DNA from: Candidatus Eisenbacteria bacterium
GTDB lineage: Bacteria > Orphanbacterota > Orphanbacteria > Orphanbacterales > Orphanbacteraceae
Length of the DNA: 64,000 nucleotides
Assembly: GCA_016930695.1 (NCBI GenBank)
Contig: JAFGGD010000020.1
Location: 62,001-126,000, forward strand
Reading direction: 5' to 3'
Shown here in pieces: positions 25,616-48,541 of the stretch (positions are counted from its first letter, which is position 1; each line of letters opens with the position of its first letter). The translations under genes and the position numbers were made by a program. Below the pieces are notes generated by a model. That model was not told the DNA's origin and did not search any database. It was given only the letters and a program-made list of their open reading frames with translations.

Positions 25616-26497
25616 TTGACTTTTCAAGAAATCATCATGGCCCTGGAGCGGTATTGGTCCGAGCGGGGCTGCCTGATCGCGACCCCTTATAACTCCGAGG
25701 TGGGCGCCGGGACATTCAATCCCGCCACTTTTCTCCGGGTGCTCGGACCGGAACCGTGGAAGGCGGCCTATGTGGAGTTTTCCAAGCGGCCCAAGGACGG
25801 CCGGTACGGCGAGAACCCGAACCGCGTGCAGGGATTCCACCAGTATCAGGTGATCCTGAAGCCGTCGCCCACGGACGTGCAGGACGCCTATATCGAATCG
25901 CTCCAAGCGATCGGCATCGACCTGAACCGCCACGATCTCCGCTTCGTCGAAGACGACTGGGAATCGCCCACCCTCGGCGCTTGGGGGCTCGGTTGGGAGG
26001 TGTGGCTCGACGGGATGGAGGTGACCCAGTTCACCTACTTCCAGCAGGCCGGCAGCCTGGACCTGAACCCGATCTCGGTGGAGCTGACCTATGGACTGGA
26101 ACGGCTCGCCATGTTTATTCAGGGGGTCCGTTCGCTTTTCGACGTCCGGTGGACCGAAGAGCTGACCTGGGGGGAGGCGCTGCGTCAGTCCGAGGTGGAA
26201 TATTGCCATCTTAATTATCAGGAGGCGGACATCGATTTTCACTTCGACCTGTTCCGCCGTTACGAAGCGGAGGCGGAGCGTCTTCTGGCGAAGGGGCTCG
26301 TCTTTCCCGGCTACGATCACTGCGTCAAGTGTTCCCACCTGTTCAACCTGCTCGACGCGCGCGGGGCCATCAGCGTAACCGAGCGGACCGCGTACATCGG
26401 CAGGATCCGCAAGCTCGCCCGGAAGGCGGCGGTCGCCTACATCGAGAAGCGGGAGAGCCTCGGCTTCCCCCTGCTCGGGAAGGGGGAGGGGGCGTGA
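25616..26497 (+). CDS. glyQ: Glycine--tRNA ligase alpha subunit
   Basis: The alpha chain of the bacterial alpha2-beta2 glycyl-tRNA synthetase (293 aa), holding the class II catalytic core. The N-terminal [12 protein letters not shown] and the [12 protein letters not shown] segment are family signatures, as are [21 protein letters not shown] and FTYFQQAGS stretches. The start is TTG at 25616, 6 bases after GAGGAGA. Its stop overlaps the glyS GTG start as GTGA. Confidence 0.97.
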
Positions 26498-28596
26498 GGA
26501 AGACGCTGCTCATCGAGATCGGCACCGAGGAGATCCCCGCCGGGTACCTGTCGCCGGCGCTGGACGCCTTCGCGGAAAAGCTCGCGTCGCGTCTCACCGG
26601 GGAGAGGATCCTCTTCGAGAGGATGGAGCGTTTCGCCACCCCGCGGCGGCTGGCGCTGCGCGCCCTGGCCGTGGAGGAGATGCAGCCGGACCGGGAGCGT
26701 GAGGTGACCGGGCCGCCGGCGCGGATCGCTTTCGACGCCGACGGAAACCCGACCAAGGCGGCGATCGGCTTCGCCAAGACCCAGGGGATCGCGCTGACGG
26801 ACCTGCGGAAAGTGACCACCGACAAGGGAGAGTACCTCGCCGCTACGGTGACCGACCATGGGCGGGCGACGGCGGAGATCCTGGCGGACCTGGTGCCGGA
26901 GATCCTGGCGTCGCTCCCCTTCCCGCGGACCATGCGCTGGGAGTCCGGCGGCTTCGTCTTCGCCCGTCCCATCCGTTGGATCGTCGCGCTTCTCGGCGGG
27001 GACGTGATCGACATCGCCGTGGCGGGCGTGCGGAGCGGGCGGACGAGCCGCGGTCACCGGCAACTCCATCCCGATCCGGTGAGGATCGACGTTCCCGAAT
27101 CCTACGAGGAGGCGCTCCGCGCCGCCTTCGTGATCGTCTCACCCGAGGAGAGGCGTTCGCGGATCGCCGAGTCGATCGCCGAGGCGGCGGCGGCCGAGGG
27201 AGGGCGCGTGATCGACGACCCCGGACTTCTGGACACGGTCGGCTACCTGGTCGAGCATCCCCACGCGGTGGTGGGACGTTTCGAGGAACGCTTCCTCGCC
27301 CTACCGGCACGTGTGGTGATCACCGCCATGCGTTCCCATCAAAAGTATTTCTCCGTCGCCGACGAGAGCGGCCGGCTCCTTCCGCGGTTCGTCGCCGTCG
27401 CCAACGGGACGGCGGGAAACGAGGCGGAGGTGCGCGCCGGCAACGAAAGGGTGCTCGCCGCCCGCCTGGCGGACGCCGAGTTCTATTGGAACGAGGACCG
27501 TTCCGTCCCCCTCGCCGAGCGGGTGGAGCGTCTCGACCGCATCCTGTGGCAGGAGGGGATGGGCTCCCTCCTCGAGAAGACCGAGCGGATCGAGGCGATC
27601 GCCGGACGGCTCGCCGCCGAGGCGGCGCCGGAGGCGAAGGGGGCGGCGACCCGCGCGGCCCGTCTCGCCAAGGCGGATCTCACCACCGAGATGATCCGGG
27701 ACGGCAAGGAGTTCACCGCACTGCAGGGTTACATGGGAATGGAATACGCCCGCGCCTCCGGCGAGGAGGAGGACGTGGCGCGCGCGATCTTCGAGCAGTA
27801 TCTCCCCCGCTTTTCCGGCGACGCGCTCCCGGAGACGGTGCCGGGGGTGATCCTGTCGCTGGCGGACCGGATCGACACGCTGATCGGCTGCTTCGCCGCC
27901 GGTCTCGTCCCGAGCGGTTCCCAGGATCCCTACGCCCTCCGCCGGAGCGCCCTCGGCGTGGTCCGCATGCTCGCCGAGGAGAGGGTCCGCCTCGATCTCG
28001 GCCGACTCCTCGCCGCCGGCGTGGAGGTGTACGGCGGGCGTCTCGACGACCCGGAGAAGATCCTCGGCGACCTGCGCGGTTTTTTCCGGCGGCGGATCCG
28101 CAACCTCCTGGTGGACGAGAAGGGTCTTCCCTACGACGTGACCGACGCCGTGCTCGAGATCGGCATCGACCGGCCCGCGGATCTGGAGCCTCGGATCCGG
28201 GCGATCGATGCAGCGCGCGCAGACGCTTCTTTCGAGCGGCTGGTCTTCGGGTGCAAGCGGGTGATGAACATCTTGAAGGGTCAGGAGCCGGCCGGCGATC
28301 CCGATCCGGCTCTCTTCCGGCAGGAGGAGGAGAAGGGGCTCGCCGCCGCCGCCGAAGCGATCCGCGAAGGATACGTCGTCTCGCTGGAGGCGGGGGAGTA
28401 CGGCCGGGCGATGGAGATGCTCCTCACGCTGCGCGACCCCATCGACCGTTTCTTCGACGCGGTGCTCGTGATGGACAAAGACGATCTGGTCCGGCGGAAC
28501 CGGATCGCCCTTCTCCAAGGCACGGCTCAGCTTTTCCGGGGGCTGGCCGATCTCTCGAAAGTGGTTTTGGAGGGGGAGCGCGATTCCTCCGCCTGA
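26494..28596 (+). CDS. glyS: Glycine--tRNA ligase beta subunit
   Basis: The beta chain of the alpha2-beta2 glycyl-tRNA synthetase (about 700 aa), which binds tRNA-Gly. It begins with the typical [15 protein letters not shown] segment and includes the HD-like YMGMEYAR...DPYALRR region and a C-terminal DALR-type anticodon-binding part. I chose GTG at 26494, where conserved sequence starts and which overlaps the glyQ stop by 4 bp; the frame is open back to 26329 only because it lies over glyQ. The GT2 gene follows 12 bp downstream. Confidence 0.97.
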
Positions 28597-28608: not shown

Positions 28609-29334
28609 ATGGTCCGAGAGATCAGTATCGTCTTCCCCGCCTACAACGAGGAAGAGAACGTCGGGGAGTCGGCGCGCCGCGCCGTCGAGGCGGCCGAAGC
28701 CGCCGGGATTTCCGATTTCGAGATCCTTTTCGTCGACGACGGGAGCCGGGACGCCACCGCCGCACGGGTGGAGGCGCTCGCCGCCGCCGACCCGCGTATC
28801 CGCCTGATCCGCCACCCCAGGAACCTCGGTTACGCCATGGCCCTCAAGACCGGCTTCGAGGCGGCGTCCAAGCGCTACATCTTCTACTCCGACTCGGACA
28901 ACCAGTTCGATATGAAGGAGATGAAAAACTTCCTTCCCGCCATCGACGACTACGACATCGTCGTCGGGTTCCGCATCTACCGTTTCGACCCCTTGACGCG
29001 CCTTTTCCTGGCCTGGTGCTACAACCTCGCGGCGCGGATGATCTTTCGGATCCGGGTGCGCGATATCGATTGCGCCTTCAAGCTTTTCCGCCGGGAGGTG
29101 TTCGACGTAATCACCATCGAATCGAAGAAATTCTTCGTCGACACGGAGATCCTCGCCAAGGCGGTGCGGCACAAGATGCGCGTGACCGAAATCGGCGTCC
29201 GGCATTATCCGAGGCCTGCGGGAAGAAGCACGGTCCGGGCGAGTCACGTCTTTTCGACGATCCGCGAACTCATTCAGATGTGGATCAAAATCTACCTCCG
29301 CTCCGACAAGCCGGAGCGTCCTTCTTCCGCGTAG
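28609..29334 (+). CDS. Family 2 glycosyltransferase (polyprenyl-phosphate sugar synthase type)
   Basis: A GT2 glycosyltransferase of 241 aa with a GT-A fold. The N-terminal SIVFPAYNEEENV, the FVDDGSRD motif and the DSDNQ (DxD-type) motif bind the nucleotide sugar. It resembles dolichol/polyprenyl-phosphate mannose or glucose synthases but lacks the C-terminal membrane helices of the CsbB/GtrB type. The likely reaction is transfer of one sugar from a nucleotide donor to polyprenyl phosphate at the inner face of the membrane. It starts 12 bp after glyS and 7 bp before the first YfhO-family gene, its probable partner. Confidence 0.88.
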   Translation: MVREISIVFPAYNEEENVGESARRAVEAAEAAGISDFEILFVDDGSRDATAARVEALAAADPRIRLIRHPRNLGYAMALKTGFEAASKRYIFYSDSDNQFDMKEMKNFLPAIDDYDIVVGFRIYRFDPLTRLFLAWCYNLAARMIFRIRVRDIDCAFKLFRREVFDVITIESKKFFVDTEILAKAVRHKMRVTEIGVRHYPRPAGRSTVRASHVFSTIRELIQMWIKIYLRSDKPERPSSA

Positions 29335-29341
29335 GCGGAGC

Positions 29342-31780
29342 ATGAACGGAAACGGAACCGGACGGAAGATCCTTCTCGCCGCCGCCTCGATCCTCGCCCT
29401 TCTCGCCCTTTTCCCGATGGATCTCGCGCCGGATCGTTATCTGGTCACCTACCGGGCGGATCTCTTCGAGCCCTGGGGACCGTCCTCGGAGGACGGAGCG
29501 TCCTTCAATTCGGATTGTTTGCGCTCGTACTATCCGAGGCGGGTGCTCGCCTCCACCGCGCTCCGTGAGGGGAGGATCCCGCTCTGGGACCCCTGGTCTT
29601 TCTGCGGACAGCCCTTTCTGGCGAACTTCCAGTCCGGCGTTCTCTACCCGGTCAACTGGGCGCTCCTCCCCTTCGCGCCGGAGAGGCAGGCGGGGCTCTT
29701 CGTCTGGATCCATCTCGTCGTCGCCGCGGTGGGGATGCTCCTCCTCCTCCGGTCTCTCGGGCTGTCGCCGGGCGCCGCTCTCGTCGGAGGGATGCTCTTC
29801 GCCGCCGGTGACGCCCTCGCGGTTCGGACGGGGCAGAGCACCATGCTCGCCGCCGCCTCTTGGATCCCGGCGCTTCTCTGGTCGGTGCGGCGAACGATTC
29901 ATGGCGGAAGCATCGCGGTGCTCGCCCTCGTCTTCGCCGGGACGATCCTCGCCGGTTTCCCGCCCATCCTGGTATGGGCGAGCCTTCTCGCCGGGGCGTG
30001 GGCGGTTCATCAGTGGCTGGAGGTCCGTGGGGAGCGGGGGACGCGTTCGATCCTCCGCGCGGCGGGCGGCTTCCTTCTCGGCGCGGGGCTCGCGGCGGCC
30101 CAGATCGTGCCGACGGCCGAGCTGATCGGGCACTCGGACCGGATCCGTTTCGCCTGGCCGACGCTCCTCTCCTCGGCGTGGCACCCGGCGGCGCTCCTCA
30201 GGCTGCTCGTTCCGGATTGGCTCGGTTCCCCCTTCGACGGGGATGATTGGGCGCACCTGCTCTCCCGCGGCGACGGCCACTACTGGCAGTCCTTTCTCTC
30301 CACCGCGTGCTACGCCGGCGCCGGAACGCTCCTCTTCGCCGCCGTCGGTTTTCGAACCGCGCTGCGCGATCGCGGCGCCCGTTTCCTGATCATCGCCGGC
30401 GCGGCGGCCGCCTTCCTTCTGCTCGGCACGCCGCTTCTCCGGATGATCTCCCTCGTACCGGGGCTCTCCGGGTCCCGGGTCGACCGGGTGGTCCACCTGT
30501 TTTCGATCGCCCTCGTCGTTCCCGCCGCCTTCGGTTTCGATCGCCTGCGCGGGGGAGCGGGGGGGAGGCGCTGCGCGGTGCTCGCCGCCGCCGCGCTCGC
30601 CGCGGCCGCCGCGGCGCTCCTCCTGTTCGGCGGGGGGATCGCCGGCCGGATCGCCGGCCGGATCGCCGGCGACGCGGGGGCCCTGGCGGCGGGCACCTCC
30701 CCCTTCGCCGCGGCGCGGGCGTCTCGGACCCTTCTCGTTCTCGGCGCGGCGCTCGTTCCCTTCCTCGTTCCCCCGAGAATCCGCCGATCCCTGTTTCTTC
30801 TCGTCGCGGCCGCGGCGGTGCTGGTGCTCGATCCGGCCCTCGTCGCGCGGAGCCGTCACGTGACCGTCGGCGAAGAGGGTCTTCCCCGGGAGAGGCCGGA
30901 GATCCTTTTTCTTCGCGAGGGCGCGGCGGAGGGAAGGGTCGTCCGATTCGAGGAAGAGAACCTGCCGCCGAACCTTCCCGGCATATTCGGGATCGAGGAC
31001 GTGGCCGGATATAACGCTTTGAATATTAAGGAATATCGCGCCTACCTGGACGCCTTCGCCCCCGGCGCGGTGAAGGAGAGAAGGATCAACCCGATCGAAC
31101 AGACGTGGGAGCTGCGTTCGATGCTGTTGGCGCGGCTCGCCGCGCGCTGGGTGATCGCCCCGCCCGCCGTCTCCGGCCTCCTCGAAGAGACGCGTTTCCC
31201 CGAGGAGCGCTATCGTCTCGCCCGGGAAGGGCGTTTCCGCGTCTACGAGGACCGCTTCGCCTTCCCCCGGGTTTTTCTGGCGGAGCGGGCGGTGCCGGTC
31301 GGATCGGCGGAGGAGGCGATGGAGGTCCTCGCCCGCCGGGGCCGGCGGAACCGGGTCGTCGCCGTCGTCGAAGGGAACTTCCCCGGCGTGGAGGAAGCGG
31401 CTCGTGCTTTTCCGGCGGGCGCAGGCGGGCGGCCCGAGGCGGCCCCTTTCGGGGGGGGAGAGCCCACGGAGGAGACGGCCGTGATCGTGGAGAGGGAACC
31501 GGAGAGGGTGGTCGTCGACTGCGCCGCCGGCCGGGCGCGACTTCTCGTCCTCGCCGATGTGTTCTATCCCGGTTGGCGTGTTTCCGTCGACGGCGCGCCG
31601 GCTCGGATCTGGCGCACCAACCGGATCCTACGGGGCGTAGCGATTCCCGCCGGCGCGCACCGGGTCGTCTTCACCTATCGTCCCCTCTCCTTCCGGGTCG
31701 GCTCGGCGCTTTCCCTGCTTTCCCTCGCCGCCCTGGCGGCGCTCGGGTTCCGGGCAATTCGCTTGCGCCGGGCCCGGTGA
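29342..31780 (+). CDS. YfhO-family membrane protein (GT-C-like), copy 1
   Basis: A YfhO-family membrane protein of 812 aa with about a dozen transmembrane helices, a long extracytoplasmic segment (about 510-770), and a final helix. Family marks are the NSDCLRSYYPRR segment after helix 1, the PLWDPWSFCGQPFLANFQS motif, and the C-terminal YPGWRVSVDG beta-sandwich motif. YfhO proteins of Gram-positives transfer sugars from polyprenyl phosphate to surface polymers. It is a tandem paralogue of the next gene. A 12-bp unit repeated three times near 30.64 kb encodes IAGR repeats in a membrane segment. Confidence 0.82.
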   Translation: MNGNGTGRKILLAAASILALLALFPMDLAPDRYLVTYRADLFEPWGPSSEDGASFNSDCLRSYYPRRVLASTALREGRIPLWDPWSFCGQPFLANFQSGVLYPVNWALLPFAPERQAGLFVWIHLVVAAVGMLLLLRSLGLSPGAALVGGMLFAAGDALAVRTGQSTMLAAASWIPALLWSVRRTIHGGSIAVLALVFAGTILAGFPPILVWASLLAGAWAVHQWLEVRGERGTRSILRAAGGFLLGAGLAAAQIVPTAELIGHSDRIRFAWPTLLSSAWHPAALLRLLVPDWLGSPFDGDDWAHLLSRGDGHYWQSFLSTACYAGAGTLLFAAVGFRTALRDRGARFLIIAGAAAAFLLLGTPLLRMISLVPGLSGSRVDRVVHLFSIALVVPAAFGFDRLRGGAGGRRCAVLAAAALAAAAAALLLFGGGIAGRIAGRIAGDAGALAAGTSPFAAARASRTLLVLGAALVPFLVPPRIRRSLFLLVAAAAVLVLDPALVARSRHVTVGEEGLPRERPEILFLREGAAEGRVVRFEEENLPPNLPGIFGIEDVAGYNALNIKEYRAYLDAFAPGAVKERRINPIEQTWELRSMLLARLAARWVIAPPAVSGLLEETRFPEERYRLAREGRFRVYEDRFAFPRVFLAERAVPVGSAEEAMEVLARRGRRNRVVAVVEGNFPGVEEAARAFPAGAGGRPEAAPFGGGEPTEETAVIVEREPERVVVDCAAGRARLLVLADVFYPGWRVSVDGAPARIWRTNRILRGVAIPAGAHRVVFTYRPLSFRVGSALSLLSLAALAALGFRAIRLRRAR
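30636..30671 (+). repeat. 12-bp tandem repeat (3 copies) inside the first YfhO gene
   Basis: The unit GGATCGCCGGCC occurs three times in a row, with the last base of the third copy changed. It keeps the reading frame and encodes Ile-Ala-Gly-Arg repeats. It could expand or contract without a frameshift. Confidence 0.85.
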
Positions 31781-31799
31781 GGGGCTAGCCTACCTTTTC

Positions 31800-34115
31800 A
31801 TGAAGGCGCGCCGTTTCATCGTTCTCATTTTCCTGGGCGTCGCGCTCCTGTTCTTCCGGGAGGCCGCCTTTCGCGATCGGGTCGAGATCCCCTGCAATCC
31901 GAACCGGTGGGAGCCCTGGCGACGCCACGCCACGGCGGAAGAGATCGCCCCTCCGGCGGTGAACACCGACTGCGCCCTCGCCTATTATCCCCGGCGCGTC
32001 TTCGCGACGACCTGGATGCGCCGCGGTGAACTCCCCCTCTGGGATCCGACCACCTTCTGCGGCCAGCCCTTTCTCGCCGATTTTCAGAGTTCCCTTCTCT
32101 ACCCGGTGAACCTCGCCCTTTACGCGATGGAGCCGATGCGGGCGATGGGGTGGTTTCTGATCATCCATTTCGTGCTCGGGGGGTGGTTCGCCTATCGGGC
32201 GGCCCGTTCCTTCGGGGTGGGGCGGGGCGGATCGATCGCGGCCGCCGTCGCCTTTGAGCTGAACCCCTTCTTTCTCACCCGAACCGGCCATCCCACCTTC
32301 GTGGCTACCGCCGCCTGGCTCCCGATGGCGGTCTTCGCGGCGAATCGTCTGGTTCGCAAACCGGGTGCGCGGCAGGCGGCGCTTCTCGCCGCGTCCCTCG
32401 CCCTGGCGGCGACGGCCGGGTTCCCCCAGACGCTGATCCACGTCTACTACGCCGTCGCCTGGCTCCTCTTCGCCGCCTGGGCCCTCCGCGAGGGGGAACG
32501 GCCGGGCCGGGTGCTCGCCGCAGGCGCGGCCGCGGTCGTTCTCTCCTTCGCCCTCGCCGCTTTTCAACTCCTGCCGACGGCGGAGTTCCTGCGCCACTCC
32601 ACCCGGGACCCGGTGGACACGGCCACTTTTCTCTCCGGGACCCATCACCCGTTCATGCTCCTCCGCGCGCTGGTGCCCGATCTCTTCGGCAATCCGATGC
32701 AAGAGAATCTCTGGTCCCCTCTCTTTCAGAGGGGAAACGGGCTTTTTAGACAGAATTATGTTTCGACGCTGAACTATTTCGGCGTTCTTCCCCTCGTCCT
32801 CGGGCTGTACGGGATCGTGAGGGGGCGCCGCCGGTTCTTCCTGGGAGGGCTTTTCCTGCTTCCGCTTCTGGTGATTTGGGGGACGCCGGCGGCGAACCTC
32901 GCCTTCCACCTTCCCGGTTTCCGTTTCTCCCGCCCGGACCGTTTGATCCTTCTCCCCCTCTTCGCCGCGTCCCTCGGTTTCGGCATGGGGGTGGACCGTC
33001 TGGCGCGCGGGGAGAGGGGGATCCCCCGGGCGCTTCTCGCCGGGCTCGTCGCGATCCTTCTCGCCGCAGCCGCCGCGGCGCTCGCTCCGGAGGAGATCAT
33101 CCGCGCCCTGTCGGGAGGGAGGGTGCCTCCCGGGCCGGTGGCGGGGACGGCGCGCGCTTCGGGGGTCACCACCGCCCTCTTCGCGCTCCTCGGGATCGGG
33201 CTCGTCCTCTTCCGGGGGCGCATCGGTCGCCGCGGATTTCTCGCCGGCGCGGCGCTTCTCGCCGGCGCGGATCTTTTCCTCTTCGGGAGCCGTTTCCACC
33301 TTACCCTTCCGGCGGAGTCCACCTTCCGCGAGACGCCGGAGATCCGGGCGATCCGCGGAGAACTGGGAGGGGAGGGGAGGCTCGTCCGGTTCGGCGTGGC
33401 GGCGCGCGATTTCCTCCCGCCCGCCACCGCTTCCCTCTACGGGATCGACGACACGGCGGGCATCAACGCCCTCAATCTGGACCGCTACCGCCGTCTGTGG
33501 GAGAGGGTCGAGCCGGGTCTCTACTCTTACCGGCGCTACCTGCCGTTGCAGAGGCTGGAGAGCCTCGACTCTCCCATCCTCCGCCTCGTCGGCGGAAGGG
33601 TCTGGACGCTCCGGGCGGACGGCGCGCCGGCGCCTCTCCGCACGGTCGAGCCGCTCCCGCGGGCGACGATGCACTTCCGTTGGGAGACGCTCCCGCCGGA
33701 AAGGATCCTCGAGAGGATCGGCCGCCCCGGCTTCGACCCGGCGGACACGCTCTTCCTGGAGGAGGAGTCCCCGCACTCCCCGCCGCTCGTCGCGGGGGAG
33801 CGCGTGGCCGATACGCGGATTGAGCGCTACGAACCGGACAGGGTGACGGTGCGCGCCCGAACCCCGGAGCCCGCTTTTCTTCTTCTCGCCGATGCCTGGT
33901 ATCCCGGCTGGACGGCGACGGTGGATGGTGAAGCGGCGCGGGTCTACAGGGCGGATTACGCCTTTCGCGGCGTGCATGTGCCCGCCGGTGAGCATGTGAT
34001 AGACTTCCGCTACCGCCCGGCGTCGTTCCGCGCCGGGGCCGGGGTGTCCGCGGCGGCCGTCCTACTCACCGCGTCGCTCGCGGTGCTCGGCCGGAAGAGG
34101 AGGAGAGAGGGATGA
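31800..34115 (+). CDS. YfhO-family membrane protein (GT-C-like), copy 2
   Basis: A second YfhO-family protein (771 aa), paralogous to its upstream neighbour along its whole length. It shares NTDCALAYYPRR, the PLWDPTTFCGQPFLADFQS motif and the C-terminal YPGWTATVDG motif. It has multiple transmembrane helices and a periplasmic C-terminal domain. ATG at 31800 lies 19 bp after copy 1 and lacks a good ribosome-binding site, which fits translational coupling. The stop overlaps the next start as ATGA. Two copies could act on different acceptors or donors, or as a heterodimer. Confidence 0.82.
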   Translation: MKARRFIVLIFLGVALLFFREAAFRDRVEIPCNPNRWEPWRRHATAEEIAPPAVNTDCALAYYPRRVFATTWMRRGELPLWDPTTFCGQPFLADFQSSLLYPVNLALYAMEPMRAMGWFLIIHFVLGGWFAYRAARSFGVGRGGSIAAAVAFELNPFFLTRTGHPTFVATAAWLPMAVFAANRLVRKPGARQAALLAASLALAATAGFPQTLIHVYYAVAWLLFAAWALREGERPGRVLAAGAAAVVLSFALAAFQLLPTAEFLRHSTRDPVDTATFLSGTHHPFMLLRALVPDLFGNPMQENLWSPLFQRGNGLFRQNYVSTLNYFGVLPLVLGLYGIVRGRRRFFLGGLFLLPLLVIWGTPAANLAFHLPGFRFSRPDRLILLPLFAASLGFGMGVDRLARGERGIPRALLAGLVAILLAAAAAALAPEEIIRALSGGRVPPGPVAGTARASGVTTALFALLGIGLVLFRGRIGRRGFLAGAALLAGADLFLFGSRFHLTLPAESTFRETPEIRAIRGELGGEGRLVRFGVAARDFLPPATASLYGIDDTAGINALNLDRYRRLWERVEPGLYSYRRYLPLQRLESLDSPILRLVGGRVWTLRADGAPAPLRTVEPLPRATMHFRWETLPPERILERIGRPGFDPADTLFLEEESPHSPPLVAGERVADTRIERYEPDRVTVRARTPEPAFLLLADAWYPGWTATVDGEAARVYRADYAFRGVHVPAGEHVIDFRYRPASFRAGAGVSAAAVLLTASLAVLGRKRRREG

Positions 34116-35788
34116 GCCGCGTGCTGATCACGGGGATCGACGGCGTGACGTTCGACACCCTCGATCCCTGGATGGACGACGGCGTCCTTCCCTACCTCGC
34201 GTCGATCCGGCGCGAGGGGGTGACCGCCCCTCTCCGTTCCACTTTCCCGCCCATTACCGCACCCGCCTGGGTTTCCTTCATGACCGGCAAGAACCCGGGG
34301 AAGACGGGGATCTTCGAGTTCCTCTACAGCCGGGGCGGCACCTTCGAGCAGACTCCGGTGAACGCCACCGTCCGGGACGGCATTCCCCTTTGGGAGATCC
34401 TCTCCCGCGAGGGGCGGCGCGTGCTCGTGCTCGGCGTGCCGGTCACCTATCCGCCCGACCCGGTGCGGGGGACCCTGATCAGCGGGTTCCTGACGCCGCC
34501 GGGGGCGCGCGATTTCACCCGGCCGCCGGAGCTTCTCGATGAGCTGGAGGAAGCCTTCGGCCCCTATCCGATCTACCACAAGGAGGTCTACCAGAAGGGA
34601 AAGGTGGACCGCGTGCTCGACGAGGCGTTCCGCATCCTCGAGTACCGGCGGAACGTGAGCCTCAAGCTGCTCAAGGAGCGGGAGTGGGACTTCGCGATCA
34701 CCTATTTCGAGGGGACCGACCGGGTGCAGCACGAGCTTTGGCACGTTTTCGACGAGACCCACCCCCATTCGAACCGGAAAGAGTCGCGCGCCCACAGGGA
34801 TCGGGTGTTGGACTACTACCGCGAGGTGGACGAAACGGCGAGGCTCGTCGGCGAAGCGGCCCGCGGGTTCGATCCGGACGCGACGGAAATCATCATGTCC
34901 GATCACGGCTTCGGACCGATTCACACCTATATGAATTTCAACGTCTGGCTCTGGGAAAACGGATTTCTTCGTCTGCGAAGGGACTTGTCGACGCGTCTGA
35001 AGACGCTCCTCTTTCGGCTCGGCTTCACCCCCGCCCTCGGCTACCGCGCCGCCATGCGGTTCGGGCTCGCCGGGCTTCGTCTCTCGCGCGGCGTGGGGGC
35101 GCGTTCGGTCCTCTTCGACCGGATCAACCGGATCTTCCTCTCCCTGGAGAACATCGACTGGGAAAAAACCCGGGCCTTCTCGAAGGGGAACTACGGCCAG
35201 ATCTACGTGAATCTCCGCGGGCGGGAGCGGTTCGGTTCCGTCGATCCCGCCGACTACGACCGGACCGCCGGAGAGCTGGTCGACAAGCTGCGGGAGATCC
35301 GCGATCCCGAGGACGGCGGCCCGCTCCTCGCCGAGGTGTTCCGCCGGGAGGAACGCTACGAAGGGCCCTACGTCGAGCGGATGCCGGACGTTCTCTTCAT
35401 CCCCCGGGACATGAAGCACAAAGCGCTCGGCATCGTGGACTTCACGACCCGGCGCTTTCTCGAGCCCACCTTCGGCAACTCCGGCGATCACCGGATGGAC
35501 GGCGTCTTTTTCGCCCGCGGCGGCCCCTTCCTCGGCGGCGCGGGGCGGATCGAAACCCTCTCCATCGCGGACGTGACGCCCACGGTTCTCCACGTTTTCG
35601 GCCTCGGCGTGCCGGAGGACATGGACGGCCGCGTGATCGAGGCGGCGCTCCGTCCGGATTGGCTCCGGGAGAACCCGGTCCGGTTCCGTCCTCCCTACGA
35701 GCGGGCGCGGCCGGAGGAGCTGGACCTGGACGACGCGGAGAGGCGGGAGATCATCGACCGGCTGAAGGGCATGGGCTACGTGGGGTAG
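34112..35788 (+). CDS. Alkaline-phosphatase-fold phosphodiesterase/phosphotransferase
   Basis: A protein of 558 aa in the type I phosphodiesterase/nucleotide pyrophosphatase group of the alkaline-phosphatase superfamily. The metal-site residues are visible: Asp10 in GIDG, the nucleophile Thr49 in PPITAPAWVSF, the GTDRVQHELWH segment, SDHGFGP, and a late SGDHRMDG histidine. There is no signal peptide, which suggests a cytoplasmic enzyme. Homologues sit beside polyprenyl-linked glycan genes, but the substrate is unknown. It overlaps the second YfhO gene by 4 bp and precedes the next GT-C gene by 4 bp. Confidence 0.85.
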   Translation: MSRVLITGIDGVTFDTLDPWMDDGVLPYLASIRREGVTAPLRSTFPPITAPAWVSFMTGKNPGKTGIFEFLYSRGGTFEQTPVNATVRDGIPLWEILSREGRRVLVLGVPVTYPPDPVRGTLISGFLTPPGARDFTRPPELLDELEEAFGPYPIYHKEVYQKGKVDRVLDEAFRILEYRRNVSLKLLKEREWDFAITYFEGTDRVQHELWHVFDETHPHSNRKESRAHRDRVLDYYREVDETARLVGEAARGFDPDATEIIMSDHGFGPIHTYMNFNVWLWENGFLRLRRDLSTRLKTLLFRLGFTPALGYRAAMRFGLAGLRLSRGVGARSVLFDRINRIFLSLENIDWEKTRAFSKGNYGQIYVNLRGRERFGSVDPADYDRTAGELVDKLREIRDPEDGGPLLAEVFRREERYEGPYVERMPDVLFIPRDMKHKALGIVDFTTRRFLEPTFGNSGDHRMDGVFFARGGPFLGGAGRIETLSIADVTPTVLHVFGLGVPEDMDGRVIEAALRPDWLRENPVRFRPPYERARPEELDLDDAERREIIDRLKGMGYVG

Positions 35789-35792
35789 AGAG

Positions 35793-37421
35793 ATGGCGGC
35801 GACGGACGAACGATCGGAGTGGACCCTCGTTCTGGGGCTGGCCGTTCTCTCGCTGGCCCTCTTTCTCGTCTACTGGGACGTGGGGGTCAACGACGACGAG
35901 GGCTATCTTCTCGGCGGGGTGACCCGTATCCTGGACGGCCAGGTCCTCTACCGGGATTTCCACCACACCTACGCGCCGGGCCGTTTCTATCTGGTGGCGG
36001 GTCTCTTCCGCCTCTTCGGAGAGAACCTGCTCGTGCTTCGCGCCTTTTGGGTGATCCTGCGGGTCGCCGTCGTGCTTCTCGCCTACGCGGCGGGGAGGCG
36101 TGTTCTCTCCCGCCCCGCCGCCTTCGCCGCGGCGCTCCTCTTCATCGTCGCCCCCGGCCCCTGGCACAAGAGCTTCTTCCATCTGTTCGTCCTTCTCCAA
36201 CTGATCGCCTTCGCCGGTCTGGGCCGGCGGGACTCGCTCCGCCCGGCGGCTCTCGCGGGTCTCGCCGCCGGCTTCGCTTTCCTCTTCCGCCAGGACCTGG
36301 GCGCCTTCGGCGTTCTCGTCTATCTCGTCCTTTTCGCCTTGAAGCGTTGGACGGGCGAGACGCCTCGCCGCGCGCTCGCCTTTCTCGCCGCCGCCGCCGC
36401 GCCGGTCGCGCCGGTGATCGTCGCCTTCGCCTTCTCCGGCGGGCTCGCCGAGGGGGCGGGCAAGGTGCTCCTCGCGGGGATGCGGGACAATCAGACCAAC
36501 ACGCTCCCCTTCCCGCCCCTCTTCCACCCGATCCGCGGCGACGTGCGCGGCGCGGGGTTTTTCCTCCTCCGGCTCCTCTACTACGCGCCGGTTCCGCTTT
36601 ATCTCGCCGCCTTCGCCGTCGGCGCGGTTCGTCTCGGGCGGGCCGGGACAGCATGGAGAGCCGGGAGAGCCGGGACCGGCGGGGAAGGGGGGAGGCGGCT
36701 CCTGGTCTACGCCCTCTTCGGGCTGCTCGCCTTCAACCAGACCCTCTGGAGGAGCGATCTGGCCCACCTGCTCCAGTCCCTCGCGCCCGCCTGGATCCTG
36801 CTTCTTTGGCTGTTCGACGAAACGGCGCGGCGCCGGCCTTTCCTCGGCAACGCCCTCGCCGGGATCCTGCCGGTGGCGGTGTTCGTTTTACTCCTGAACT
36901 ATTCCCAGACGTGGTGGGACAGCTACGGCGCGGCTCGGATCGCCGCCGAGGGATTCCAGCCGATCCCCCCCTACTACACCGGTTCCCTCGCCCAGCTCGG
37001 CGGCGGGGAGACGCAGCGGCTCCCCTTCGACCGCGCGCCGCTCCGCACCACCCGGGAGCAGGCCGCTTTTCTGACGGTGCTCGGCGAAACCGTGGACCGC
37101 TACTCGCGGCCCGGGGACTATGTTCTCAGCGTTCCCGGATTGCAGATGACCTACTTCCTCTTCGACCGGAGGAACCCGACCGCCTACATCCACCTGCGGC
37201 GAGCCCTCGACTCGCGCGAGGAGGAGGACCGCTACATCCGGGATCTGACGGAGAAGCCGACCCGTATGGTTCTCCTCCGGGATGCGCCGATCGACGGGCG
37301 GGAGGAGCGCCGCTTCTCTCTCTACGCGCCGCGGGTGTTCGAGGCGATCGAGCGGGAATTCGAACCCGTGGGCATGCTGGGCGACATTCGTGTCTACCGG
37401 CGGAAGGGAACCGGCCTTTGA
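35793..37421 (+). CDS. GT-C (family 39-like) membrane glycosyltransferase
   Basis: A polytopic membrane protein of 542 aa with the GT-C layout. A DDEGYL acidic motif lies in the first periplasmic loop (about residues 32-38), followed by HHTYAPGRFYL, about ten transmembrane helices and a periplasmic C-terminal domain of about 160 residues. PMT/ArnT-type enzymes move a sugar from a polyprenyl-phosphate donor to a protein or lipid. A low-complexity Gly/Arg/Ala stretch near residues 285-305 lies in a cytoplasmic loop. The stop overlaps the next TTG start as TTGA. Confidence 0.75.
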   Translation: MAATDERSEWTLVLGLAVLSLALFLVYWDVGVNDDEGYLLGGVTRILDGQVLYRDFHHTYAPGRFYLVAGLFRLFGENLLVLRAFWVILRVAVVLLAYAAGRRVLSRPAAFAAALLFIVAPGPWHKSFFHLFVLLQLIAFAGLGRRDSLRPAALAGLAAGFAFLFRQDLGAFGVLVYLVLFALKRWTGETPRRALAFLAAAAAPVAPVIVAFAFSGGLAEGAGKVLLAGMRDNQTNTLPFPPLFHPIRGDVRGAGFFLLRLLYYAPVPLYLAAFAVGAVRLGRAGTAWRAGRAGTGGEGGRRLLVYALFGLLAFNQTLWRSDLAHLLQSLAPAWILLLWLFDETARRRPFLGNALAGILPVAVFVLLLNYSQTWWDSYGAARIAAEGFQPIPPYYTGSLAQLGGGETQRLPFDRAPLRTTREQAAFLTVLGETVDRYSRPGDYVLSVPGLQMTYFLFDRRNPTAYIHLRRALDSREEEDRYIRDLTEKPTRMVLLRDAPIDGREERRFSLYAPRVFEAIEREFEPVGMLGDIRVYRRKGTGL

Positions 37422-38401
37422 AAGGGAAGCTGCTGCGCCTCGCCGTCACGGTGTTCCTGCTGGCGCTCGTCCTCTCCCGCGTGGACTGGGACGATTTCCG
37501 GCGGATCGGCGCGGGCGTCCGGCCGGGGCTCGTGGCGATCGGATACGCACTCAACCTGGTGATGGTGGCGCTCAACACGGTCCGCTGGCGGGTCCTGGTG
37601 AACGCCCTCGGCGTACGGGTTTCGATGCTCCGGCTCGGCTCTTATTACTTCGTCTGTATGTTCTTCAATAATTTCATGCCCACCTCCATCGGCGGCGACG
37701 TGATCCGCGTCATCGATCTCGCCCGCCACACCGGACGCAAGACCACGGCCATGGCGTCCATCGTGGTGGAGAGGCTTCTCGGCCTCTACGTCCTCTTCCC
37801 CCTCTGCCTCGGCGCATTTTTCCTCCTCCGGAGCGACCTGCCGGAGCGCCGCTGGTTTCTCCTCGCCGAGGGGGGAATGGCGGCGGCATTTTTCTTCGGC
37901 ACGTTGGTCATCCGCAGGAGAAACGTTCGACGCCTCGAGCCGCTTCTCCGACCCTTCGAATCGGGACTCCGGCGCTTCGGGCTCCGGGAGAAGGCGGCGG
38001 GATTCTACGACACCCTCGATTTCTACAAAGGGCGCCGCCGTGAAGTGGGTTGGGCGCTCTTCCTGTCCGTCCTCTCGCGGGCGGTCTGGGTGGTGAGCTG
38101 CTGGGTACTCGGTCTTTCCATCGGGATCGATCTGGGGCCGGTGCACTTCTTCCTCCTCATGCCCCTCGTCGAGGTGGGACGGATGATCCCGATTTCGCTC
38201 AACGGCATGGGGATCCGGGAGGGCGTGCTGGTTATCGTCCTCGGCCTTTTCGGAACCGGCGAAGCGGAGGCGGTCTTCCTCTCGGTCCTCGTCTACGGCA
38301 TCTTCTTGATCAACGGGCTCCTCGGCGGAGTCGTTTACGGGCTTCGCGGGTTTTTCGACCCCAAGCCGGCGCCGGAGGGGGGGAGGGATGGAACGGCCTA
38401 A
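37418..38401 (+). CDS. UPF0104/LPG-synthase-TM-like flippase-family membrane protein
   Basis: An integral membrane protein of about 327 aa of the lysylphosphatidylglycerol synthase transmembrane/UPF0104 family. It has about eight helices and the family motifs LNTVRWRVLV, FNNFMPTSIGGDVIR, ERLLGL, and PISLNGMGIREG near the C-terminus. Members are proposed lipid or lipid-linked-sugar flippases. I chose TTG at 37418, which overlaps the previous stop and has GGAAGGGA upstream; the open frame extends further back only over the previous gene. It overlaps the next gene by 14 bp. Confidence 0.83.
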   Translation: MKGKLLRLAVTVFLLALVLSRVDWDDFRRIGAGVRPGLVAIGYALNLVMVALNTVRWRVLVNALGVRVSMLRLGSYYFVCMFFNNFMPTSIGGDVIRVIDLARHTGRKTTAMASIVVERLLGLYVLFPLCLGAFFLLRSDLPERRWFLLAEGGMAAAFFFGTLVIRRRNVRRLEPLLRPFESGLRRFGLREKAAGFYDTLDFYKGRRREVGWALFLSVLSRAVWVVSCWVLGLSIGIDLGPVHFFLLMPLVEVGRMIPISLNGMGIREGVLVIVLGLFGTGEAEAVFLSVLVYGIFLINGLLGGVVYGLRGFFDPKPAPEGGRDGTA

Positions 38402-40670
38402 ACGTCGCCTGTCGCGCCGCCGCATCCTTCTCGCCCTCTATGCGAGCGCCCTCCTTCTCCGCCTGCTCTACCTGGCCGACGCGCGGAGCAACCCCTTCCT
38501 GGACGCCCTCGGGCTGGACGCCCGCTACTACGACCTGCGCGCCCGGGAGATCCTCGAAGAGGGGCTCGTCGGCGACGAGGCCTACTTCATGGGGCCCCTC
38601 TACCCCCATCTTCTCGCCCTCGTCTACGGCGCGGCGGGACGAAACCTCGACCTGGTCCGCGTCCTCCAAGCGTTGATCGCCGCCTTCGTGCCGGTTCTGA
38701 TTTACCGGATCGGTTCGCGGCTCCTCTCGCCCACCCGGGCGATGATCGCGGCGGTCGCGGCCGTTTTCTACGGCCCCTTTTTGTTTTATGTGGGAACTAT
38801 ATTATACACGACGCTGGCGGTCACGCTGATCCTCTGGATCCTGGACCGGATCATCCGCCCCCGCGGGGAGCGGACCGGGGCGGGACTCTTTTTCACGGGG
38901 ATCCTCTTCGGGCTCGCCGCGGTGGGGAAGGGAAATCTTCTCTTCTTTCTTCCTTTCGCGCTCGCCGCCGTCGCCCTGCCGGAAAAGAAAGGGGGGAGAC
39001 CGGACCTCCGCGCGCCGGCGCTTCTCCTCGGCGGGCTCCTCGTGGTGGTCGGCCTGGTGACGGCGCGAAACCGGGCGGCGAGCGGCGACTGGGTCTGGCT
39101 CACCTCCAACGGCGGCCTGAACTTCTACATCGGCAACGGGCCGGAGTCTTCCGGCGCATACGAGAAGCCGAAGGGGCTCGACGTGGACAACGACCCCTCC
39201 GGGAAGGGGCTGCTGGAGAGAGAGGTCGGGCGGTCGCTCACGCCGACCGCCCTCTCCCGCGAGTGGAGCGACCGGGCGATCCGCTGGATCCGGGAAAACC
39301 CAGGCGCGGAGGCGCGGCTTCTGCTGCGCAAGACGGTCTTCTTCTTCTCCGACGTGGAGATCCCCCAGATCGAGAGCTACCGTTTTCAGATGCGGTACGG
39401 CGGCTTGACGCGGGCGCTGCACATCCCCTTCGGCCTGATCGCCCCCCTCGCCCTCGCGGGGATCGCGGCCTTTCTGCGGCGGCGGACCTGGGTCCTCGTC
39501 GCGTTTCTCTTCTCCTACGCCGCGTCGATCATTTTCTTCTTCGTGCTCACCCGTTATCGCCTGCCGGTGGTGCCGGTGCTTCTCCTCATGAGCGCCGTTA
39601 CCCTCGCCGACGCGGTGGAGGCGTTTCGCCGCCGTCGCTACCGTCGCCTGGCGGTTCTGGGCGCCTGGTTCGTTCCCCTCTTTCTCTTCAGCAACCTGAA
39701 CTTCTACCGGATCTCGCCGAGCACCGGTGAGGCCCAGTCCCACTATCGGCTCGGTATCATCCGGCAGTCCGAGGGGGACACGGAGGGAGCGCTCCGCGAG
39801 TATCGCCGGTCGATCGAACTGGATCCGGACTACGAGCGCTCCCGCCTCAATCTGGGTGAACTGCTCGCCGTCACCGGGGAGAGGGAGGAGGCGGAGCGGC
39901 AGTTCCGCGAGGCGATCCGCATCGCTCCGGACTACGCGAAGGCGTACGGCAACCTCGGCGCGCTCCTCTATCGGACCGACAGGCGCGAGGAGGGGAGGGC
40001 GGCTTTGGAGCGCGCGGTCGCCCTCGATCCGGAGTACGGCCGGGGCCTGCTCCACCTCGCCGTTCTCGCGTTGATCGAGGGAGAGGAAGACGGTTCTTCG
40101 CGCGCGAAGAGGGCGCTCGAGCACCTTGCGCCGGACGACCCGATACGGGGCCTGGCCGGGGAGTTCCTCGCGCGACTCGAAGAGGTGGAGACGATCGCCC
40201 GGTCGCGGAAGGCGAGGGGGCTCGATCCGTTCCCGCCGCCGGCCACGCGGGAGGCGATGGCGGCGGAGCTTCTCCGGGACCGGAGGGACACGGCGGAACT
40301 CTACGACCGGGGGGCCCGGGGGGGCGATCCGGCGGCTCTCTATTTCCGGGGCGCCGCGCTCTACAGGGCGGGGGATCTGGATGGAGCGCGCCGTGATTTC
40401 GAGGCGGCGCTGAAAAAGGCGCCGGAGATGCCTTTCCTCCACTTCGCCGTCGGCGTGCTTCGCCACAGAGAGGGGAGGCCGGACCTCGCGCTCGCCGAGT
40501 TCCTCGAGGAGACCCGCCTCCATCCCGGTTTCGCGCCGGCGTGGAAGAACGCCGCCCTGCTCACCGCCCGCTCCGGCGACAGAGAGGAAGCGCGGCGGTT
40601 GGCGGCCGAATATCTGAGGCGTGGGGGCGAGGAGGACCCGGCGATCCGCGACCTTATGGGATCCTCCTAG
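38388..40670 (+). CDS. GT-C-like membrane glycosyltransferase fused to TPR repeats
   Basis: A 760-aa protein in two parts. Residues 1-440 are a GT-C-like membrane domain with a DARYYD motif in the first loop, YFMGPLYPHLLALVYG, and about ten helices. Residues about 447-760 are a soluble tetratricopeptide-repeat region, with canonical YRLGIIRQSEGD...ALREYRRSIELDP and following repeats. The TPRs probably lie outside the membrane and could bind the acceptor protein, as in other glycosyltransferase-TPR fusions. It is the last gene of the co-directional run. Its stop codon shares CTAG with the stop of the converging gene. Confidence 0.8.
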   Translation: MERPKRRLSRRRILLALYASALLLRLLYLADARSNPFLDALGLDARYYDLRAREILEEGLVGDEAYFMGPLYPHLLALVYGAAGRNLDLVRVLQALIAAFVPVLIYRIGSRLLSPTRAMIAAVAAVFYGPFLFYVGTILYTTLAVTLILWILDRIIRPRGERTGAGLFFTGILFGLAAVGKGNLLFFLPFALAAVALPEKKGGRPDLRAPALLLGGLLVVVGLVTARNRAASGDWVWLTSNGGLNFYIGNGPESSGAYEKPKGLDVDNDPSGKGLLEREVGRSLTPTALSREWSDRAIRWIRENPGAEARLLLRKTVFFFSDVEIPQIESYRFQMRYGGLTRALHIPFGLIAPLALAGIAAFLRRRTWVLVAFLFSYAASIIFFFVLTRYRLPVVPVLLLMSAVTLADAVEAFRRRRYRRLAVLGAWFVPLFLFSNLNFYRISPSTGEAQSHYRLGIIRQSEGDTEGALREYRRSIELDPDYERSRLNLGELLAVTGEREEAERQFREAIRIAPDYAKAYGNLGALLYRTDRREEGRAALERAVALDPEYGRGLLHLAVLALIEGEEDGSSRAKRALEHLAPDDPIRGLAGEFLARLEEVETIARSRKARGLDPFPPPATREAMAAELLRDRRDTAELYDRGARGGDPAALYFRGAALYRAGDLDGARRDFEAALKKAPEMPFLHFAVGVLRHREGRPDLALAEFLEETRLHPGFAPAWKNAALLTARSGDREEARRLAAEYLRRGGEEDPAIRDLMGSS

Positions 40671-42670
40671 CGGTCGGTTTCCGGGGCGTTTTCCTCGCGG
40701 TGCTCCACGCCGCGCGCTTCCGGAAGACGGTAAAGCTCCAGCCCGTTCCAGGCGCCCGCCCGCCCGCATCGTTCCCAAGCGGCGTTCATCACGCGGATCC
40801 CCTCCGGCGGCGACCAGCGCGTGAACACATTCTGCAGGGTCCGGTTCACGAGCGCCCAGCGGTATCCCTCCCGGCGGAGCCTCTCCAGCCAGCGGTCCGG
40901 CGAACCCGCCTCGTCGGCCGCGGCGGCGAGGGCGGAGGCTTCGAAGAAGCTGTCCGCCCCGTAGGGCCGTCTCCAGTAATATCCCCGGTTCTCCCATACG
41001 AGGAGAGATCTCTCCCCGGGGGGGACGATCCTCTCCGCTTCGCGGAAGGCGCGGTACGACTGCACTTTTCGGGAGAGGTACGTTTCCCGGTTCTCGCGTC
41101 CCGTAACGACGGGGAGCGCGTCGCGCGCCGTCTCCCGCGCGACCGGGGCGATGAGGAGGAGCGCGACGACGGCGAAGAGCGCCGCCTGCGCCGTTCCCGC
41201 CGCGCCTTTTTCGGTCCGCCAGTGGGCGCCGGCGATCCCGGCGAGGAGAAGGATTACGGGGAGCAGGAAGCGGAGTTGCTGGGAGCCGGCCCCCCACAGG
41301 TAGACGCCGGCGAGCGCGATCACCAGAAACCACCTCGCCGTCCGTCCCCCACGCCACAGAGCCCAAGGCGTCCAGAGAAGGAGCGCCGGCGAGAGCACGC
41401 CGTCGAAGAACCGATAGACGGGTTGCCCGTGCAGGACCGCGTTCCAAGGGAGGAGAAGCCAGTGTCGCGCGTCCCTCCCCATCCCGATCGAACGCTGCCA
41501 GTCGATCAGGCGGCGTCCCAGCTCGGGGCTCCAACCCTCGCCGCCGAGCGCCGCGGGGAACATCGGGAAGAGGGGGTTCCCCGTTTCCGCCGCGGCCTTG
41601 ACCATCCAGGGGACGACGAGGATATGGGAGAGGCCGACGAAGAGGAGGACTTCCCGAAGCCCGCGCCGGCGCGCGCCCGGAAGAACGGGAAGGAGAAGGA
41701 TCGCGGGGAGGAGAGGATAGGCTGCGTAGGAGCTGTATTTCACGGCGAGCATGGAGCCGGCGAAGAGCGCCGCCGCGATCCATTCCCCCGCGCCTCCCCC
41801 GTCTCGGCGTCGGAGAAGGTGCAACGCCGCGAGCCCGAAGAAGAGGGAGGCGGCGAGGTCCACGTTCCCCACGGTGCGCGGGTCGAGGACGAGGGGGATC
41901 GAGAGGAAGAGGAGCGCCGCCGCCCGGCCATCCGCGCCGGCGCGCATCCTGCGTGCGATCCGCGCCGCGATACCGGCGTTCAGTCCGAGAAGGAGAATGT
42001 ACAAGGCGCGCGCGGAGGGCTCGCCGCCGAATCGGTAGGCGATCGCGTAAAGGAGGTCCGCCGCGTGGGGCATGCGCGCGTAAACGAGGTCGGGCGCCGC
42101 GGCGAAGCTCCTCCCCTCCGCATAGGCGCGGGCGAGCGTCATGTGGTAGACCATCGGGTCGTTCGCCGTGAGCGGCGCCAGGGCGCGCACCAGCGCGGTC
42201 GCGAGCGCCGCGAGAATCAGCGCGCCGAGCACCCAGCCGGCGACGGATCGGGGCGGCCGCGGCGCACGCGGCCACGGGATCACGCCGCGCCGGAACGCCG
42301 CGGCCGGAAGGAGGAGCAGGGGAAGAAGAAAAGCCGTCCGAAAGGCGCCCGCCGTGAGAAGGAGGAAAGCGGAGACCCACGCGGCGACGAAACCGAGACC
42401 GATCGCGCCGCTCCATCCGGGGCGGCGGAGGTGAAGGAGACGGGCGATCCCCGCGCCGGAGAGGAGGGCGATCGCCGCGAGGGCCGTCGCGCCGAGAAGC
42501 GCCGTCCCCTCTTCCGTCCAGGGCGGATCGAAGGAACCGAGCTCCCCGGGCGAGCCGAAGGCGGGGCGGGGCGGGTGCTCCCCCAGGAAGCGGATCATTA
42601 AGAAAGCGGCCGCCGCCGCCCACGCCGCGACCGCCGCCGCCGATCTCCATGACCCCTTCCGATCGGTCAC
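40667..42670 (-). CDS. Polytopic membrane protein, probable GT-C glycosyltransferase
   Basis: A membrane protein of about 667 aa with more than ten hydrophobic helices. A periplasmic loop holds an NDPMVYHMTLARAYAEG segment that matches the acidic first-loop pattern of GT-C enzymes. The LVYARMPHAADLLYAIAYRFGG segment and a C-terminal periplasmic part (about 560-660) support this. I chose GTG at 42670, which has GAGGGG 7 bases upstream; GTG at 42694 is in frame with no clear ribosome-binding site. It converges on the TPR-fusion gene with overlapping stops. The acceptor and donor are unknown. Confidence 0.65.
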   Translation of the reverse strand: MTDRKGSWRSAAAVAAWAAAAAFLMIRFLGEHPPRPAFGSPGELGSFDPPWTEEGTALLGATALAAIALLSGAGIARLLHLRRPGWSGAIGLGFVAAWVSAFLLLTAGAFRTAFLLPLLLLPAAAFRRGVIPWPRAPRPPRSVAGWVLGALILAALATALVRALAPLTANDPMVYHMTLARAYAEGRSFAAAPDLVYARMPHAADLLYAIAYRFGGEPSARALYILLLGLNAGIAARIARRMRAGADGRAAALLFLSIPLVLDPRTVGNVDLAASLFFGLAALHLLRRRDGGGAGEWIAAALFAGSMLAVKYSSYAAYPLLPAILLLPVLPGARRRGLREVLLFVGLSHILVVPWMVKAAAETGNPLFPMFPAALGGEGWSPELGRRLIDWQRSIGMGRDARHWLLLPWNAVLHGQPVYRFFDGVLSPALLLWTPWALWRGGRTARWFLVIALAGVYLWGAGSQQLRFLLPVILLLAGIAGAHWRTEKGAAGTAQAALFAVVALLLIAPVARETARDALPVVTGRENRETYLSRKVQSYRAFREAERIVPPGERSLLVWENRGYYWRRPYGADSFFEASALAAAADEAGSPDRWLERLRREGYRWALVNRTLQNVFTRWSPPEGIRVMNAAWERCGRAGAWNGLELYRLPEARGVEHREENAPETDR

Positions 42671-42722
42671 ACCGGAACCCCTCGTTTCGCCCACTCCGGC
42701 GGGCCGGACCGCGATGACTCCC

Positions 42723-42752
42723 TTGACAGCGCGCCTTCCCCGTCAGTATAGT
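42723..42752 (+). promoter_or_regulatory. Sigma-70-type promoter for the WD40-like lipoprotein gene
   Basis: TTGACA (42723-42728) and TATAGT (42747-42752) are separated by 18 bases. The start site would be near 42759, giving a leader of about 90 bases before GTG at 42850. Confidence 0.75.
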
Positions 42753-42849
42753 GATCGCGTTTGATTTTACTTGGGTTAGAAACAGGAGTCCATCGTTTGA
42801 CGATATCCCCCCGGCGGGATCGATCCGGGGGTCGAAAGGAGGATACGAG

Positions 42850-44499: not shown

Positions 44500-44541
44500 G
44501 CGAAAAATCGGCTAACCACTTTCAAATCCGGCGTTAACCCA
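44500..44541. other. Short gap before the 44.5-kb promoter
   Basis: This 42-base AT-richer gap contains GGCTAACC and GCGTTAACC as an imperfect direct repeat. I see no convincing terminator for the upstream lipoprotein gene. Confidence 0.4.
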
Positions 44542-44571
44542 TTGACATTCGTCGCTTCATTTTGGTATAAT
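44542..44571 (+). promoter_or_regulatory. Consensus sigma-70-type promoter with extended -10
   Basis: TTGACA (44542-44547) and TATAAT (44566-44571) are both perfect, 18 bases apart, and the -10 is preceded by TGG (TGn). It is the strongest promoter match in the window. The start site would be near 44578, which makes a leader of about 340 bases. Confidence 0.9.
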
Positions 44572-44577
44572 GGCCAA

Positions 44578-44919
44578 CGATGCGACGAAATGTACTGATT
44601 TATGGTGGATTGCCTCCCCTTTCGCAGCCAGGTAACCGGTACGCGCCCCGCGGCGGGGCGGACTTCGTCGTGTGTGCTGCGAGGGGGTCTTTCCTTAGAC
44701 GTGAGGAGGTGATAAGCACAGGCAAAAGAGACCGCGCATGATGTTTTATTGAGGATGCCCGCGTTTCGAGTGAGGAATTCCATCCGTCGCAGGGTTCCTG
44801 ATCGGATCGTGGGTGTGGGTCGTCTCCCGCGCGAGATAGCCGGCCTCCTCTCGAAGGGGGAAATACGGCGGAGGGCGGTCCATGTGATTCTTGTTCCTTA
44901 TGCGATGGAGGGCAGAAGT
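44578..44919 (+). other. Long structured 5' leader of the 1165-aa secreted protein gene
   Basis: About 340 untranslated bases separate the predicted start site from the ATG. A hairpin CGCCCC-GCGGC-GGGGCG lies at 44644-44660. It is enclosed by a long-range 7-bp stem between CGACGAA (44583-44589) and TTCGTCG (44664-44670). A full anti-Shine-Dalgarno complement, AGGAGGTGAT, lies at 44704-44713, some 207 bases before the ATG. It matches no riboswitch class that I recognise. Confidence 0.55.
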
Positions 44920-48417: not shown

Positions 48418-48448
48418 TCTGTTTTCGGAGTAGATCGTTTCTTCCGGA

Positions 48449-48485: not shown

Positions 48486-48541
48486 CGCGGGAAGGACTTG
48501 AGAGGGGAAGGAATGCACCCCGCGACCCTTCCCCGGCCGTC

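Follow-up and report, generated by a model that had tools for sequence, protein, structure and literature searches.

The operon that follows glyQS in this genome of Candidatus Eisenbacteria probably encodes a multi-component transmembrane glycosylation pathway with a lipid-linked sugar donor, a flippase of the UPF0104 family, and YfhO-family GT-C transferases. The window analysed here is a stretch of 64,000 nucleotides from one contig of that genome. The original prediction for this DNA was that a GT2 enzyme and two YfhO proteins form a three-component system of extracytoplasmic glycosylation. Its core, glycosylation outside the cytoplasm by GT2 and YfhO GT-C proteins, is well supported by conservation of the genes, by the fold, and by conservation in the catalytic loop. 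The number of components was underestimated, as the conserved unit comprises at least seven genes, encoding the GT2, two YfhO proteins, a phosphodiesterase, a PMT_2 protein, a UPF0104 protein, and a second PMT_2 protein that carries TPR repeats. The genes concerned are as follows.

10898-11377, minus strand: GtrA gene (PF04138, 86 bits), adjoining aspS and 17 kb from the GT2 gene
25616-26497, plus strand: glyQ, glycyl-tRNA synthetase alpha chain, with orthologues directly upstream of the cluster in three phyla
26494-28596, plus strand: glyS, glycyl-tRNA synthetase beta chain, with orthologues likewise directly upstream of the cluster in three phyla
28609-29334, plus strand: GT2 of the GT-A fold, 241 aa (PF00535, 110.8 bits)
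29342-31780, plus strand: YfhO-family GT-C protein, copy 1, 812 aa (PF09586, 34.4 bits)
31800-34115, plus strand: YfhO-family GT-C protein, copy 2, 771 aa (PF09586, 54.5 bits)
34112-35788, plus strand: type I phosphodiesterase of the AlkP superfamily (PF01663, 145 bits)
35793-37421, plus strand: PMT_2-family GT-C protein (PF13231, 31.5 bits), its place kept in its own phylum and in phylum B
37418-38401, plus strand: UPF0104/LPG_synthase_TM protein (PF03706, 155 bits; TIGR00374, 76.5 bits)
38388-40670, plus strand: PMT_2 GT-C domain followed by C-terminal TPR repeats (PF13231, 35 bits; several TPR families)
40667-42694, on the strand opposite to the operon: further PMT_2 gene

Open reading frames with Pfam support were found for the GT2 and, 7 bp behind it, for two tandem YfhO paralogues, which are 19 bp apart, as had been proposed; the GtrA and UPF0104 genes also proved to be real. 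From recO through the PMT_2-TPR gene the intergenic gaps range from -14 to +19 bp, and the UPF0104 gene overlaps both of its neighbours, the upstream one by 4 bp. Scans of the locus for promoter and terminator consensus sequences were uninformative. The position directly after glyQS was borne out both by location and by conservation in relatives; glyS is a conserved upstream anchor, and so is glyQ, which is probably not a functional part of the system. Further downstream (42667-60674), most long open reading frames have no Pfam match, the exception being one LVIVD-repeat protein.

The GT2 is probably a polyprenyl-phosphate sugar synthase, as predicted from its sequence. Its best matches in the PDB were ArnC (3e-20) and DPM synthase (2.5e-13), and the GtrB-type protein sll0501 was matched as well, all of which are enzymes that place a sugar on polyprenyl phosphate. 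Together with the PF00535 match, these hits put the protein among the putative GT-A lipid-phosphate glycosyltransferases. Motif residues such as D95, D97, and Q99 do not vary across 16 relatives, and hydropathy analysis of the GT2 found no transmembrane segment. In Alteromonas and relatives (loci L054, L056, and L057) and in Chloroflexi (L058 and L059), GT2 relatives at 42-44% identity were found that have no YfhO gene nearby; the two Chloroflexi loci have a UPF0104 gene immediately 3' of the GT2 relative.

Both YfhO copies exceed the PF09586 cut-off of 28.5, with weak matches that are best over short C-terminal stretches, and they share 34% identity with each other. As modelled by AF2 (mean pLDDT 93.8), copy 2 has a GT-C fold: AftD (3.7e-9), ArnT (1.1e-6), and OST were at the top of the Foldseek search, and each of the twelve PDB entries matched at E<=0.001 was a GT-C enzyme (AftD, ArnT, OST/AglB, AftA, and Emb). 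The assignment of copy 1 to the GT-C proteins is a prediction through its alignment with copy 2. A search of the PDB by sequence with a YfhO profile returned nothing useful. The loss of the catalytic-loop residue from both copies would have spoken against the system, and it has occurred in neither: the Asp of the first loop is kept as Asp58 in copy 1 and Asp57 in copy 2, and the position is Asp in 37 of the 37 rows that have a residue there, in an alignment of 39 rows. It is the sole invariant Asp of that loop, and no DXD or DXXD pattern was found around it. The model of copy 2 also has a large domain ahead of the last long helix; in Bacillus subtilis YfhO, a large extracytoplasmic domain lies between the last two helices (PMC5836110).

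Among the remaining members of the operon, the phosphodiesterase keeps its likely metal and nucleophile positions (D10, T49, D203, H207, D264, H265, and H460) invariant across three phyla. Hydropathy analysis of this protein found no transmembrane segment, and a PDB search with its sequence gave nothing useful. The PMT_2-TPR protein was modelled with a pLDDT of 85.0, and its TPR superhelix matches the TPR region of OGT. All top Foldseek matches of this model were TPR proteins, and the search is therefore uninformative on the GT-C half.

Conservation was followed in three small and poorly known phyla: that of the source genome, sampled by seven genomes (one family with five genera, so that the family, class, and phylum samples are identical), phylum B, to which genome G140 belongs (8 genomes), and phylum C, to which genome G072 belongs (5 genomes). 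A GT2 orthologue is present in 7/7, 8/8, and 5/5 of these genomes, respectively. In a sample of 193 genomes that includes the seven, close GT2 relatives occurred in only three further genomes, two of which belong to phyla B and C. The original prediction named conservation of gene order in relatives as a check, and the outcome was positive: a YfhO gene adjoins the GT2 gene or sits one gene off in all 19 genomes that could be assessed on the contig, and the pair follows glyQS in every case where the contig reaches that far. All seven genomes of the phylum of the source genome have the order recO-glyQ-glyS-GT2-YfhO-YfhO-phosphodiesterase, followed, as far as the contig or stretch extends, by PMT_2-UPF0104-PMT/TPR. 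The order in phylum B is glyQS-phosphodiesterase-GT2-YfhO-PMT_2-UPF0104-YfhO-PMT/TPR, and that in phylum C is glyQS-phosphodiesterase(s)-GT2-one gene-YfhO-phosphodiesterase-PMT/TPR, so that in both the phosphodiesterase gene directly precedes the GT2 gene. In genome G203 there is a single YfhO gene, and UPF0104 lies between it and the GT2 gene. Extra copies of the phosphodiesterase were seen within the phylum C cluster (L149, L164, and L165). An arrangement that is kept in seven of seven genomes and, with variations, in two more phyla is not due to chance. Because the wider YfhO-like family is common, being found in 68 of the 193 sampled genomes at E<=1e-80, the restricted element is the partnership with this GT2 rather than YfhO itself.

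The persistence of the linkage to glyQS, whose function is unrelated to glycosylation, could also be taken to mean that the neighbourhood is held together by inertia alone and that the GT2 and YfhO genes form no functional unit. We regard this as very unlikely, since pairings of GT2 with YfhO and of UPF0104 with YfhO recur at unlinked sites in the same genomes, and since the cluster varies in internal gene order from phylum to phylum but retains most of its genes. In the source genome (G000), for instance, a second, unlinked GT2-YfhO pair lies on contig C33 (L042, about 8075-11295, minus strand), with a GT2 that is 42% identical, and a second pair of this kind occurs in G000, G001, G002, G003, G004, and G006, six of the seven genomes of the family. 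Contig C45 carries two more YfhO genes (82878-86104 and 98654-102573; L043 and L044), each with a UPF0104 gene beside it; one of the two directly precedes a GT2 gene, and the surrounding region is rich in GT2 genes.

In the phylogenetic tree, the YfhO proteins of the source phylum split into one clade for copy 1 and another for copy 2, each with full support, so both copies are old, and both have been retained. One-to-one orthology of the two copies across phyla was considered and is rejected by the tree: the distal YfhO of phylum B falls together with the lone G203 copy and with the YfhO of the second GT2-YfhO pair of the source genome, and the phylum C copy groups with other paralogues.

The flippase is a weak point of pathways that use lipid-phosphate sugars. 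The original prediction had named two proteins for this role, the GtrA protein and, as a further candidate, the UPF0104-type protein encoded at 37418. Only the latter lies in the operon. The UPF0104 family is present in 20 of the 20 GT2-bearing genomes, and the gene is encoded within the operon in those contigs of the source phylum and of phylum B that are long enough to show it. It also recurs beside YfhO at other sites, far more often than chance would give: of the 34 UPF0104 genes in the family genomes, 9 have a YfhO gene no more than 300 bp away, against 0.03 expected under random placement, a figure that overstates independence, as these genomes are related and the 34 genes are not independent of each other. 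In phylum C, no UPF0104 gene was found in the cluster within the stretches read; these genomes have 6-8 copies elsewhere, and the role would fall to one of those unlinked genes. In archaea, UPF0104 proteins encoded beside an AglD-like glycosyltransferase and a PMT/STT3-like protein were predicted in 2015 to be glycosylation flippases, and MprF, a relative of UPF0104, is needed for moving lysyl-phosphatidylglycerol across the membrane (PMC5898192).

A system of GT2, GtrA, and YfhO in which the GtrA protein is the flippase has in its favour that this protein is encoded in the same window. However, its gene is unlinked to the operon, lies on the opposite strand next to aspS, and is missing from most of the GT2-bearing genomes (16 of 20): it was found in four of the seven family genomes, those without it including a 10-contig assembly, and in none of the 13 genomes of phyla B and C that have the locus. 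This pattern of absence largely refutes GtrA as a general requirement; GtrA was rejected as a component, and we consider a system that depends on it extremely unlikely. The GtrA gene stands beside a gene for a DUF255/thioredoxin-like protein (10898-13642, minus strand), between aspS and phoH. Since the locus goes with UPF0104 in three phyla, and mostly without GtrA, the UPF0104 protein becomes a testable flippase candidate.

The pathway that we propose would begin on the cytoplasmic side of the membrane, where the GT2 would use a nucleotide sugar to load a single sugar onto polyprenyl phosphate. The UPF0104 protein would then flip the polyprenyl-phosphate sugar to the outer face, with no need for GtrA, and the two YfhO proteins, for which the fold (in copy 2) and the conserved Asp were found, would use this lipid donor to glycosylate extracytoplasmic acceptors, which may be positioned by the large YfhO domain between the last two transmembrane helices. 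The two PMT_2 proteins probably use the same donor on acceptors outside the cytoplasm, and the phosphodiesterase would be a conserved component of the pathway. The conservation of both YfhO copies suggests two acceptors or two successive additions. The steps have precedent in the literature (PMC8035078, PMC5836110, PMC5856776, and PMC5898192).

Two kinds of acceptor can be considered. In a narrower form of this pathway, exported proteins would be glycosylated, with the YfhO copies acting in sequence, as has been proposed for PgfM1 and PgfM2 of Streptococcus mutans, and the PMT_2-TPR protein acting as a TMTC-like O-glycosyltransferase on the same lipid-linked sugar. The best NCBIfam model for the GT2 is PgfS, and the sole NCBIfam matches of the YfhO genes are PgfM1 and PgfM2, all far below their cut-offs; furthermore, the last gene of the operon has the PMT_2 plus TPR architecture, and full-length TMTC-like homologues are known in prokaryotes (PMC7801869). 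On the other hand, the NCBIfam scores are only 14-76 bits against cut-offs of 500-1500, the operon has no counterpart of the epimerase PgfE, and the TPR repeats could be cytoplasmic or bind another partner. We hold this narrower form tentatively, at a little less than an even chance. Alternatively, the sugar could be attached to an envelope glycan or lipid, such as an outer-membrane glycolipid, an O-antigen-like molecule, or a secondary polymer, comparable to the decoration of teichoic acid by CsbB-GtcA-YfhO or of lipid A by ArnT. The classical YfhO works on LTA/WTA (PMC5836110, PMC8035078), the nearest folds are those of ArnT and AftD, and other YfhO genes of the source genome lie in the region of contig C45 with multiple GT2 genes. 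However, the operon contains no polymer synthesis genes, and its location among housekeeping genes and its retention across three phyla are unlike typical variable polysaccharide loci; we put an envelope acceptor clearly short of an even chance. The precedent of the Pgf system and the TPR-fused GT-C protein slightly favour a protein acceptor. A more far-reaching form, in which the locus is a bacterial counterpart of the eukaryotic route from DPM1 to TMTC/PMT, with an anchorless GT2, a UPF0104 flippase, and YfhO and TPR-fused GT-C proteins that O-glycosylate exported proteins in several FCB-like phyla, is speculative and, in our estimate, unlikely.

The statement in the original prediction that such a system appears undescribed was too strong, since the S. 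mutans pgf operon is known and a YfhO-like GT-C family was recognised in 2023; what stands is that the literature searched contained no account of this particular operon. A literature search on YfhO, which left subscription papers mostly outside its reach, gave no description of the locus. Already reported are the combination of a GT2 with two YfhO proteins, a YfhO-like GT-C family, and, as a prediction of 2015, archaeal neighbourhoods of GT2, UPF0104, and GT-C genes.

The closest operon by content is pgfS-pgfM1-pgfE-pgfM2 of S. mutans, whose GT2 and two YfhO-type proteins modify surface proteins (PMC5856776). The two operons share one GT2 and two YfhO-type membrane proteins, whereas pgf has an epimerase, which is absent here, and lacks the UPF0104, phosphodiesterase, and PMT_2 genes; in addition, PgfS has been described as membrane-bound (PMC5856776), in contrast to the GT2 here, which has no transmembrane segment. 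The scores, 76 bits against a cut-off of 500 for PgfS and 20 against 1400-1500 and 27 against 1500 bits for PgfM1/PgfM2, are so far below the cut-offs that the system is better described as working like Pgf than as a member of it. The general scheme set out in a review on Firmicutes is one that the operon fits (PMC8035078). With CsbB-GtcA-YfhO (PMC5836110, PMC8035078) it shares a GT2 predicted to supply a lipid donor, a candidate flippase, and a YfhO GT-C protein whose last two helices are separated by a large extracytoplasmic domain, but it has no linked GtrA/GtcA partner, its GT2 has no transmembrane anchor, and it has two diverged YfhO copies and additional GT-C proteins; teichoic acids, the acceptors in that system, are not expected here if the host is diderm. 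The operon thus resembles the Gram-positive system but differs from it in its likely flippase and in having more sugar-transferring enzymes. Among bacterial GT-C proteins annotated as YfhO, component 27, a "YfhO-like" family defined by structure and a sequence network, distinct from B. subtilis YfhO, and flagged as dark in 2023, is similar in length to the YfhO copies here, which may belong to it; the accessible part of its source provides no operon context (PMC10584680). In the archaeal UPF0104/AglD neighbourhoods, UPF0104 stands beside an AglD-like GT2 and a PMT/STT3-type protein (MJ_1079/MJ_1080), but the GT-C protein is not a YfhO, and the accessible part of that report mentions neither a phosphodiesterase nor a TPR fusion (PMC5898192). 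The O-mannosyltransferases TMTC1-4 share with the last gene of the operon a GT-C N-terminus followed by TPR repeats (PMC7801869), whereas the PMT_2-TPR protein here matched only PMT_2 and TPR families. YfhO-like GT-C proteins have so far been poorly characterised, and in this locus they gain fixed genomic partners (the GT2, UPF0104, the phosphodiesterase, and a TMTC-like protein), so that donor and acceptor can be searched for in a defined system.
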